Shown here in pieces: positions 29,542-32,744 of a stretch of 64,000 bases of DNA. The notes beneath the pieces were generated by a model that saw only the letters and a list, made by a program, of their open reading frames with translations, did not search any database and was not told the origin of the DNA. Both the position numbers and the translations under genes were made by a program. How positions within the stretch are numbered: position 1 is the stretch's first letter; each line of letters begins with the position of its first letter. Where the stretch lies: positions 496,001-560,000 of the forward strand of contig NZ_CP033459.1 in the NCBI RefSeq assembly GCF_003265305.2. Reading direction: 5' to 3'. This DNA is from Pseudoprevotella muciniphila (GTDB lineage: Bacteria > Bacteroidota > Bacteroidia > Bacteroidales > Bacteroidaceae).

Positions 29542-30693
29542 TTAGGCTTCTTTCAACACATATTTCAACTTGCTCCGTTTTTCAACAAAGCGTCCATATT
29601 GCCATGGGGTACGCATAGGGAGGAAAAGCTTTCTTTGCAGGTGTGTGCTACTATAATGCCCCATGATGCCGAGCCAACTGTTTAGTCGTGCTTGAATGTG
29701 TTTTGGACAGGTTTCGTGCTCTACCAAAGGGAGTTTTTTCTTTATGCGATGCAAAGTTGGGTTATTTACATAGCGTCGATAGGGTTTTAGGTAGGCACCA
29801 AGAAAATCTACACCGAAAGACGCGTTATATATCCTCACTTTTCCTTCATGAAGATAAAGATTCAAATTTTGCAAGAGAAAATAGCGCACACGGGGTATCA
29901 GACTTCTCAGAAAATCTCTATCGCAAGACACCACGTAGAAGTCATCTACATAGCGACCATAATGCTTACATTTCAGTTCTCGCTTCATGTATTGGTCTAA
30001 TTCATTCAGAAAAACATTACTGAAAAGTTGACTGGTAAGATTGCCAATGGGCAGTCCGCAACCAAGAGGACTACAGAAAAGGCTTTTCTCTTTGGGCAGA
30101 TGTAGCCACTCTGCCCTATTACCTTTCATAATGCATCCATCCGTTGGATTGAGCAAAATAATCTCACGAGAGAGGTATTCAAGAAAGTCGAGAAGTGAAC
30201 TACCAAAATTTTGGCGCAGTCTTCTTAGTTGACGAAGTGTGATATCCAATAGTCGCTGCCGATTGATGTGCATAAAGTAGCCTTTGATGTCCATCTTTAG
30301 TACATAGCAACGTTGGGAGTAGTTTTGGCTTTCGCATAGGATGTGGTGCTCCAAACGGTCTATACCAAAATGCGTGCCTCGCCCTTTTATGCACGAATAA
30401 CTGTCGTAGATAAATGTACGTTCAAGCCACTCGTGTGTATAATTGTAGTAAAGATGGTGCACGATGCGGTCGCGAAAGTTGGCAGCAAAGACTTCTCGGA
30501 GTTTGGGATCGTTAATCAAGAAGCATGTGCTGGGGAGAGGTTTGTAGGTGCGGTTAATCAGTTCGTCGCAAAGTGCTTCTAAATTCTTATCCAATCTGGC
30601 GGCGAACAAGCGTTGATAGGGTTTATTGCGTTTATGGCGACTGGCATCATAGAAAGCACGGGTTAGGTCGGACAACAATTGTTCGCGATTCAT
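29542..30693 (-). CDS. DGR reverse transcriptase
   Basis: The 383-residue protein has the ordered RT motifs: NFRDRIVHHL (about 72-81), catalytic Asp135 in VLKMDIKGYF, GLPIGNLTSQ (213-222), YVDD (248-251) as the catalytic pair, and FGVDFLGAYLKP. The IGNLTSQ form, in place of the PQG...SP form of group II introns and retroviruses, is the hallmark of DGR RTs and is linked to low fidelity at template adenines. There is no maturase, endonuclease or retron msr/msd arrangement. It is the last gene of the cassette, 187 bp after the TR. Confidence 0.96.
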   Translation of the reverse strand: MNREQLLSDLTRAFYDASRHKRNKPYQRLFAARLDKNLEALCDELINRTYKPLPSTCFLINDPKLREVFAANFRDRIVHHLYYNYTHEWLERTFIYDSYSCIKGRGTHFGIDRLEHHILCESQNYSQRCYVLKMDIKGYFMHINRQRLLDITLRQLRRLRQNFGSSLLDFLEYLSREIILLNPTDGCIMKGNRAEWLHLPKEKSLFCSPLGCGLPIGNLTSQLFSNVFLNELDQYMKRELKCKHYGRYVDDFYVVSCDRDFLRSLIPRVRYFLLQNLNLYLHEGKVRIYNASFGVDFLGAYLKPYRRYVNNPTLHRIKKKLPLVEHETCPKHIQARLNSWLGIMGHYSSTHLQRKLFLPMRTPWQYGRFVEKRSKLKYVLKEA

Positions 30694-30728
30694 AGTAGAG
30701 ATTTTTATAACTTAGCAGGTCCTTTTAG

Positions 30729-30820
30729 TCGCTTCGCGAGAAATCTTTCAAATCTTACAAAATTTTACAAAATCTTGTTTCTATTTATGAGATTTGTATG
30801 ATTTCTGCCTCGTCAGAGGC
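30729..30820. repeat. hairpin-capped intergenic repeat (family A), copy 1
   Basis: Left hairpin TCGC-TTC-GCGA (30729-30739), then GAAATC...AAATCT. The mirrored AGATTTGTATGATTTCT precedes the right hairpin GCCTC-GTCA-GAGGC (30807-30820). The architecture matches copies at 46403, 47343, 51666 and 52318, but the stem sequences differ. It lies between the RT start and the TR. Confidence 0.7.
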
Positions 30821-30880
30821 ACTTATATTTTGATAGTATAAATAAAAGGGATGCACACCCTTCTTGTGAAGAGGTAAGTG

Positions 30881-31069
30881 CTTAGAACGCACGGGCCGTA
30901 CAGTGTGTCCGTTGTTGCGGTTGTTGTTGACGTTCACATCGTCCGAGTTGAAGTTCAGGTTGTACGCGTTGTTCGGGTTGTCTGCGTTAAGCGTACGCGA
31001 CCAATATTTGGCGTTAGAACCTGCGTTGTTGAGCGACGTGCCGTTGCGGTTGCCCGCAGCGGGAAGGAA
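30881..31069 (-). repeat. DGR template repeat (TR)
   Basis: The 189-bp segment is non-coding but, read on the minus strand in the VR frame, would give FLPAAGNRNGTSLNNAG followed by many AAC (Asn) codons and GHTVRPVRSK. AAC-rich codons are typical of DGR templates because A-mutagenesis of AAC reaches many residues without a stop. It aligns with VR with 20 substitutions at template A and 2 at template C. The 32 bases at 30881-30912 are identical in both. The frame continues past both ends, but there is no start signal, so no protein is claimed. Confidence 0.95.
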
Positions 31070-31266
31070 CAAACCTTTTCGGCAGCCATCTGGAAAGATG
31101 CAATGCGGAACTATCCTATCTTGATTTATTTATACTCAATCATTATAGGCATGAGCCGCGTTGCATCACTTAGTTTTTCTCAGAAGCTATTGAAGCCCCA
31201 AAGACAGGCTGCCTATGAACTGACCAGCTCCAATTTGCTGGGGTGCATCCTTATAAATTATTTATA

Positions 31267-31803
31267 TCAAATCAAGCGAGCAAGATGTGCCTTGATTTCT
31301 GCAAGGAACATCATGCAGTCGATGGGCGATTTGCTCTCTACGGGAAAGGACATGATGGTGTGCATCACTTCTGAAATAGAAGAGGGAGAAATAGCTTCCG
31401 ATTGTCGTGACGTTGATTTTTCTTTTTGTTGCGATGTACTGAGAGGCTGTTTCTCCACCCATTGTGCATATTCTGCACGCATGGTTTCTAATACATCATT
31501 TGTTACATCAATAGGCAAGTCGATGACCGTGTGCTTGTCCTCCACGTCTTTTGGCACACAACCATCAGGAACAAATTTCTGCAGGCTCGTCTTTGGAAAA
31601 CCGATGTAAACCACAGGAGCATCGATATCCTTGAATTGACGTTTTGTAGCCTTGAACTCATGAACAAAACGACACATGAGCCATGCGCTCCAGTCGTAGG
31701 CGCGCATAAAACTTCCCTCGTGCCACAAGTGGACACGATGACATTGTGTCGCGTCCTTTGTGCGCTCTCTCTCAAATTGAACAACTTCTTTAATACTTGC
31801 CAT
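31267..31803 (-). CDS. DGR accessory protein (unknown fold)
   Basis: This 178-residue protein lies between the target gene and the TR, the slot used by accessory genes in DGRs. It does not resemble the small basic four-helix Avd protein of phage BPP-1. The N-terminus IKEVVQFERERT...RVHLWHEGSFMRAYDWSAWLM loosely recalls the FFxxGxFYExY motif of MutS domain I; this is a pattern resemblance only. A hydrophilic Ser/Gln/Lys linker (about residues 118-140) is followed by a short helical end. It probably helps cDNA synthesis or homing, inferred from position alone. Confidence 0.7.
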   Translation of the reverse strand: MASIKEVVQFERERTKDATQCHRVHLWHEGSFMRAYDWSAWLMCRFVHEFKATKRQFKDIDAPVVYIGFPKTSLQKFVPDGCVPKDVEDKHTVIDLPIDVTNDVLETMRAEYAQWVEKQPLSTSQQKEKSTSRQSEAISPSSISEVMHTIMSFPVESKSPIDCMMFLAEIKAHLARLI

Positions 31804-31842
31804 TATTTTTTCTTTGAAGATTTGAGCCTATTCTTCTCCGTT

Positions 31843-31876
31843 GGGGCGCGAGGCTAAAGCCTCTGGGGTGCGCCCC
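31843..31876. other. stem-loop(s) just beyond the VR
   Basis: GGGGCGC (31843-31849) pairs with GCGCCCC (31870-31876). Inside it GAGGCT-AA-AGCCTC (31850-31863) forms a second perfect stem. The competing pair GCCCCACAA (31872-31880) / TTGTGGGGC (31906-31914) overlaps it. In transcription direction these lie 24-95 nt past the VR. They could be the cruciform that assists retrohoming in other DGRs, or a terminator or attenuator between target and accessory gene. Confidence 0.55.
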
Positions 31877-31937
31877 ACAAAGAAGAACAGTCTCAAATCT
31901 GTGTGTTGTGGGGCATTGGGAAGGATGCACTTCAGTT

Positions 31938-32127
31938 CTTAGAACGCACGGGCCGTACAGTGTGTCCGTAGTTGCGGTAAATGGGTGACGTACACACCGT
32001 CCGAGTAGAAGTACAGGCAGTACGCGTAGTCCGGGCTGTCTGCGTTAAGCGTACGCGACCAATAATTGGCGCCAGAACCTGCGTCGTATAGCGACGTGCC
32101 GTAGCGGTGGCCCGCAGCGGGAAGGAA
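31938..32127 (-). repeat. DGR variable repeat (VR)
   Basis: This is the 190-bp 3' end of the target gene, matching TR over its full length. On the coding strand the AAC codons of TR have become codons for Tyr, His, Asp, Ser, Gly, Cys and Thr, while non-adenine positions are kept. Bases 31938-31969 are identical to TR 30881-30912, a candidate initiation-of-mutagenic-homing end. One extra base lies in the AAA run at 31979-31981 relative to TR. Confidence 0.95.
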
Positions 32128-32601
32128 GATGGAATGACCATTACGTCCTGTGAAGAGCATACCTTTCACACCATTGATTTTGGTCCATCTGTGCTTGGTG
32201 TGTTCGATGAGTTCTTCGAATTGTTCATCGGATGGTATCCGCCATTTACCGCCCCAGAGTTTACGAGCTACGTCATCTGAAAGGTCTAACTCTTCCTTAT
32301 CATCTGTGAAGCCATCTTCACCATAGTCTGAATCTGTACAATATTTTGTAAGTTTATCACTGCCAAACTTATAGCTATCCCAATCGTATTTAGTTTTTCT
32401 TGATGTTTCGCCCCAAGCATAATAATAGCCATAATTCGTCCTTGTTTTCGCACCAATGTTGCAATCTGCCCATTTTGTGCCACTGGGCAAGCCGAGGTCG
32501 ATATAACGGTGACCATGATCCATACCGTTTTGTGCTGAAAGCGTAAGAGGCAAGAAGGAAGTCGTTATAGCGACCATTAAGAAAAATACTATCTTTTTCA
32601 T
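31939..32601 (-). CDS. DGR target: secreted lectin-like protein (Fib_succ_major type)
   Basis: A signal peptide (MKKIVFFLMVAITTSFLPLTLSAQ) is followed by the Fibrobacter succinogenes major paralogous domain: IDLGLPSGTKWADCNIG, YYAWGE, KLWGGKWRIPSDEQFEEL and FLPAAG...NYWSRTL. This domain is related to the C-type-lectin/FGE fold used by DGR variable proteins. The last 60 residues are the VR, where variable residues should form the ligand face. ATG at 32601 is chosen because the promoter lies inside the longer frame that begins at 32721. The frame now ends LRTHCTARAF; the TR-like frame would end GHTVRPVRSKN, so the C-terminus looks frameshifted by one base. Confidence 0.92.
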   Translation of the reverse strand: MKKIVFFLMVAITTSFLPLTLSAQNGMDHGHRYIDLGLPSGTKWADCNIGAKTRTNYGYYYAWGETSRKTKYDWDSYKFGSDKLTKYCTDSDYGEDGFTDDKEELDLSDDVARKLWGGKWRIPSDEQFEELIEHTKHRWTKINGVKGMLFTGRNGHSIFLPAAGHRYGTSLYDAGSGANYWSRTLNADSPDYAYCLYFYSDGVYVTHLPQLRTHCTARAF

Positions 32602-32684: not shown

Positions 32685-32744
32685 ATTTAATGCGAGTTTT
32701 TATTTCATCCATTTTGTCCATTTATCCGCCAGGTTATTTTTTTG

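Follow-up and report, generated by a model that had tools for sequence, protein, structure and literature searches.

The window, a 64,000-nucleotide stretch of the Pseudoprevotella muciniphila genome, carries what can be regarded with sufficient certainty as a genuine chromosomal diversity-generating retroelement (DGR) of the MSL-accessory type, a member of an already known and common kind. The whole is very probably explained by an MSL-type DGR with cDNA homing to a bulge-marked VR in cis and, now or in the recent past, to three further VRs in trans. On the minus strand, the target gene with its VR is followed by the accessory gene, the TR and the reverse transcriptase (RT), which is the usual DGR order (Table 1). 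The target ORF is alternatively readable from position 32721. The same anatomy and the same adenine bias recur in about 20 Bacteroidales loci and about 35 viral contigs. An earlier note, made from the sequence alone, had described a complete DGR with adenine-directed variation, and this description holds: every part is present in the usual order, and most changes between TR and VR fall on template adenines.

Table 1. Features of the DGR locus (window positions) and remote genes ending in TR-like sequence (genome positions)
Feature	Position	Strand	Evidence or remark
DGR reverse transcriptase, 383 aa	29542..30693	-	RVT_1, phrog_1423, 8ub7, tree
TR, AAC-rich, without a hairpin of the VR kind behind it	30877..31069	-	realignment, sequence
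Accessory gene, 178 aa, MSL (MutS domain I-like) family	31267..31803	-	conservation, MutS_I, fold model
Inverted repeat forming a hairpin/cruciform, 35 bp, 3' of VR	31818..31900	-	folding, genome tip search
VR, 3' end of target gene	31934..32127	-	realignment
32-base block shared by VR and TR at their 3' ends, probable initiation-of-mutagenic-homing region	31938..31969	-	alignment; assignment inferred
One base more in VR than in TR, within the AACAACAAC run, shifting the target frame	31985	-	placement within run ambiguous
Target gene, secreted, C-terminal FISUMP/Lcl_C C-type-lectin-like domain	31939..32601	-	Lcl_C, Fib_succ_major, paralogue fold
Remote gene, 223 aa, secreted	885556-884885		TR-like 3' end
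Remote gene, 683 aa, lipoprotein-like	2390689-2392740		TR-like 3' end
Remote gene, 716 aa, VWA-like segment	2511088-2513238		TR-like 3' end

Realignment of TR with VR gave 193 aligned columns with 23 substitutions, 20 of which are located at the 55 adenines of TR (hypergeometric p=6e-10). Rather than being spread evenly over the template bases, the changes thus concentrate on adenines, with 11 A>T, 7 A>G and 2 A>C. The three remaining substitutions are all at a TR cytosine (31031, 30923 and 30880). The earlier note had counted 22 substitutions, with two at template C; its 30923 and 31031 are reproduced, and the overlooked third is 30880 at the 3' edge. Its count of twenty adenine sites was also reproduced, and all but one of the positions agree, 30924 taking the place of 30925. 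The TR/VR pair that it delimited is real, and the lengths it gave, 189 and 190, already imply an extra base in VR, on which it did not comment. It likewise made no mention of the resulting frameshift, the family of the accessory, the hairpin behind VR or the remote genes described below. The 32-base block shared at the 3' end, beyond which VR reads AAGAACT and TR reads AAGCACT, is the probable initiation-of-mutagenic-homing region, as judged from the alignment.

The RT matches RVT_1 (E=2.5e-13) and the phrog_1423 reverse transcriptase family (1.6e-85), with 8ub7, an RT of the same length as bRT, as its best PDB relative (1.5e-29). Both DGR motifs pointed out earlier, IGNLTSQ and YVDD, are present. 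In the RT tree it sits with the RTs of loci L009, L010 and L011 inside the Bacteroidales set, grouping with the RTs of the about 20 loci whose TR/VR pairs are A-directed in the same way; further out lie the DGR RTs of phages, that of BPP-1 among them. Two other RTs of the same genome, taken as a group II-like outgroup, form a separate long branch apart from the DGR RT. A group II intron RT was rejected on both this separate clade and a maturase-family score of 93.8 bits against a cut-off of 300. A retron RT was rejected on score only (40.6 versus 235 bits for one retron family), the tree containing no retrons. Of the two groupings that the earlier note had named as contrary evidence, group II introns are therefore excluded by tree and score, and retrons by sub-cutoff scores alone. 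The ORFs of the two other RTs (C1:2812395-2812982 and 847922-848482, in L068 and L070) have open frames of 574 and 572 aa.

As for the genomic setting, an Rfam search of the window gave no match. In congeners, the two flanking genes, for an S1 protein and a ClC channel, do not lie side by side, and this comparison therefore yielded no clean empty site. The S1 protein is up to 85% identical to members of the same genus; ParC reaches at most 73% identity to the named MAGs tested, with the Bacteroidales as order-level kin.

The target protein matches Lcl_C (5.5e-7) and Fib_succ_major (8.5e-4), both under the curated cut-off. The predicted model of an intact paralogue resembles the Lcl C-terminal domain (8q4e, Z 7.4) and Mtd (1yu3, Z 6.9). 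At the level of this model, a C-type lectin fold near these two proteins is confirmed for the C-terminal domain, in agreement with the lectin-like fold claimed earlier. Foldseek alone found no match under 0.001 for this model or for that of the accessory protein; the structure matches of both come from VIA-align, a second look after Foldseek. The target may be displayed at the cell surface and bind a ligand there. Two DGR targets of rumen Bacteroidales (L015:3007-4752 and L026:1398-3254) have a kinase-like N-terminus (GxGGMAEVWYAEN..AAIK/AVKI) fused to the variable lectin-like domain, and would thus be kinase-type proteins subject to diversification. In the present genome, two truncated or broken target paralogues are without VR (C1:773099-773569 and 1028433-1028597).

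The extra base of VR lies opposite the AACAACAAC run of TR, an AAC run, between TR positions 30928 and 30927. It shifts the last 13 codons of the target, which ends in YVTHLPQLRTHCTARAF at a TAA stop (31941-31939), in place of the in-frame NRNYGHTVRPVRSKN and the TGA (31934-31932) expected after GHTVRPVRSKN. As a result, the end strand G-x-(S/T)VRxV is lost. When 18 targets are aligned, all 17 others have an ending of the type G-x-x-V/I-R-x-V, and viral targets are similar. In the structure predicted for the intact paralogue, this ending forms the final strand of the lectin fold; provided that the extra base is real, the product of the sequenced allele is thus probably misfolded. A later homing event is expected to restore the target frame, because TR itself is in frame. 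Sequencing error, template slippage and later mutation are all possible origins of the base. A sequencing or assembly error, with the target intact in the organism, is a serious possibility, though somewhat less likely than not: a single genome of the species is available, and a coding frameshift was seen in none of the other targets checked for frame. Against such an error, the genome is a single 2.92-Mb contig (2,920,169 bases, 99.95% complete), the large neighbour genes have open frames, no homopolymer longer than 3 is found at the insertion site, and the insertion falls inside an AAC repeat, the kind of sequence at which template slippage by the DGR RT has been proposed (PMC12875486). A recurrent DGR coding frameshift was rejected, given that the 1-nt insertions in L090, L119 and L031 all lie after the stop codon.

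Three other genes of the genome end in TR-like sequence coding for VR-like lectin domains. All four VRs, with that of the window as VR1, are followed by a hairpin with the tip GGCTTTAGCC and a 6-7-nt bulge. At VR1, the 35-bp hairpin carries the bulge ACCCCA (31869-31864) and the tip GAGGC-TTTA-GCCTC (31863-31850). All four stems are paired and end in the tip GGC-TTTA-GCC, the bulge sitting in the 5' arm at 4-5 bp from the tip, and the distance from stop codon to tip is about 80 bases in each case. The outer stems of VR1 and VR3 are alike; those of VR2 and VR4 resemble neither these nor one another (identity 0.26-0.46, close to random). A general genome repeat was rejected for GGCTTTAGCC, which has only 6 copies, four at the VRs and two in coding sequence without a hairpin. 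The TR has no bulged-tip hairpin; its own 3' flank in the window nevertheless has a z of -4.7, compared with 3' flanks over 20 loci of mean z -6.6 for VR versus -0.3 for TR (paired p=2e-6). Nor does the structure correspond to the straight phage-type target hairpin, with a stem of 7-10 bp and a GRNA loop (PMC3240598), having instead 35 bp, a TTTA loop and the 6-nt bulge. The hairpins are GC-rich and lie just behind stop codons, as ordinary transcription terminators without a role in homing would. This reading is very improbable: tip and bulge are common to four unlinked genes with unrelated stems, the stems of 24-46 bp are far longer than terminators need, and the position of the defect is constant across relatives (see below).

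The differences of the remote VRs fall at TR adenines in 36/55, 28/43 and 24/51 cases (p 1e-12, 4e-9 and 4e-4). Such a bias is expected in any paralogue, because the TR adenines sit at variable codons. Moreover, the remote VRs show 15, 19 and 27 non-A differences from the present TR, which is therefore not their recent writer. These differences are what would be seen if the remote genes were mere target paralogues, whose A-site pile-up reflects TR AAC codons at exposed variable residues, without rewriting from this TR. That possibility, which we consider the less probable one, also fits the WSSSL of VR2 and VR4 as against the WSRTL of TR, VR1 and VR3, and the L009 genome, which holds five diverged paralogues without the bulged hairpin. 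Other evidence argues against it. In all three remote genes, conserved residues keep the same codon more often within the VR than upstream (23/27 vs 37/77, 25/31 vs 20/39 and 22/33 vs 23/59; p 0.0006, 0.01 and 0.01), which favours past rewriting from a TR. The VR-specific hairpin tip is kept at all three genes on independent stems. Furthermore, the 3' flank of the gene at 2392 kb (C1:2392738-2392870, in L072) is 93% identical to the VR flank of the window and ends in a broken accessory start; as the match reaches the first accessory codons, a DGR copy or fragment once lay there. From these sequence comparisons we propose that the three remote genes are, or recently were, trans targets; for present trans activity the balance is even. 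Next to the remote target at 885 kb (C1:884265-889466, in L071) lie a large tail-like ORF and an ORF resembling an amidase, and the region may be what is left of a prophage. A tandem ORF repeat of three near-identical copies (C1:2389574-2390023, in L072) is found upstream of the remote target of 683 aa.

The accessory gene is conserved in 17 other loci, where it likewise separates VR from TR. MutS_I matches 12 of 17 family members, with L009 and L031 above the curated Pfam cut-off; the accessory of the window alone falls below the match level, so its assignment is made from family and fold. The predicted model (pLDDT 88) is of mixed alpha/beta type, and its first 42 VIA-align matches are all MutS/MSH domain I (Z 6.1-4.3), including MutS-beta with looped DNA. 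A search of the accessory profile against PDB sequences gave no MutS match; thus, the MutS link comes from Pfam and fold. The conserved accessory motif GxFxRAY, compared by eye, resembles GDFYE of MutS, with the Phe kept and the Glu replaced by Arg. An accessory of Avd type was rejected, as the model is not a four-helix bundle and the family searches returned no Avd match. MSL with PF01624 has been named as a known DGR accessory (PMC10053308). The GenBank phage collection contained no detectable match to the accessory of the window; dozens of viral contigs (L090-L134) carry MSL-type DGRs despite this blank. An MSL-type DGR of the same clade, with a bulged hairpin, occurs in a MAG labelled Bacilli (L021), by cross-phylum transfer or mis-binning.

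Among relatives, 45 viral contigs with the accessory and the cellular loci gave 46 de-duplicated MSL-type sites. A long hairpin (median 26 bp) with a defect of at least 3 bases 4-9 bp from the tip is present at 38 of the 46, whereas among 20 sites of Avd type or without an accessory (median 14 bp) it is present at 5 (Fisher p=1.2e-5); this count is crude, since the longest rather than the VR-nearest hairpin was taken, the known GAAA hairpin of BPP-1 was missed and the loci are related by descent. The defect lies 4-9 bp from the tip in 40/41 cases, against 24% expected if uniform. In the L009 genome, the tip and bulge proper to that genome (AGAACAG, GGCGGCTC-ACC) occur at two remote sites whose non-A divergence is low; five paralogues that have diverged further have neither. 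A search of the viral contigs by TR pattern found none. Common descent of the RT clade alone might tie the bulged hairpin to MSL-type DGRs, without any contact between accessory and hairpin. The case for this is nearly balanced: the MSL loci form one RT clade and their counts are not independent, whereas the tip differs fully between genomes and is shared within a genome with the defect position kept, as for a recognised, co-evolving mark, and the accessory has the fold used by MutS to bind mismatches and loops. Recognition of the hairpin bulge by the MutS-like accessory as a targeting mark is, at this stage, a tentative proposal drawn from correlation.

These observations enable us to propose a putative model. 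The RT would copy the TR transcript with random bases at adenines. The cDNA, starting in the shared 3' block, would then replace the VR at the 3' end of the secreted lectin-domain gene; retrohoming itself is inferred for this locus. The long DNA hairpin just 3' of VR would mark the target site, with the tip (stem, loop and 6-nt bulge) as the specific mark, and the presence of this mark behind three distant genes whose C-terminal domains are of the same kind would make these trans targets, now or recently. In a more speculative extension, the MSL accessory would be the targeting factor for the cruciform bulge, the genome-private tip would make any gene that acquires it a target, and slips in AAC repeats would switch the frame that homing restores.

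Known DGRs with an MSL accessory (PF01624, PMC10053308) share the order target/VR, accessory, TR and RT and the MutS_I-like accessory; a bulged hairpin with remote targets sharing its tip, as seen here, is absent from the literature covered. A literature search for DGRs with a bulge found nothing relevant, the main survey of DGR accessories (10.1093/nar/gkx1150) being outside its scope. The bulged site thus seems to be a variant of the DGR target mark that has not been described before. The DGR of Bordetella phage BPP-1 (bRT, Avd, TR and the VR of Mtd) likewise combines A-directed change, a C-type lectin target and a hairpin 3' of VR, which is required there and whose loop is read by sequence (PMC3240598). 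However, its accessory is Avd and its hairpin is short and straight with GAAA in the loop, in place of MSL and the 35-bp, TTTA-looped, bulged hairpin. The DGRs of Treponema denticola and Pseudogulbenkiania similarly pair one RT with several distant target genes, and such chromosomal remote targets may be remnants of DGR copies since lost (PMC4891356, PMC3521204). Their remote VRs differ almost only at A, whereas those described here have many non-A differences and keep the hairpin mark.

In summary, DGR target choice is known in detail for one phage system only, with its short straight hairpin and Avd, and MSL-type DGRs are common among the Bacteroidales of gut and rumen and the phages of these bacteria. 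If true, our model would give a function to an accessory family so far without one and explain how one RT diversifies unlinked genes. It would also provide a short portable mark for finding remote targets overlooked by metagenome surveys, one of which stated that they were not detectable there (PMC8144416).
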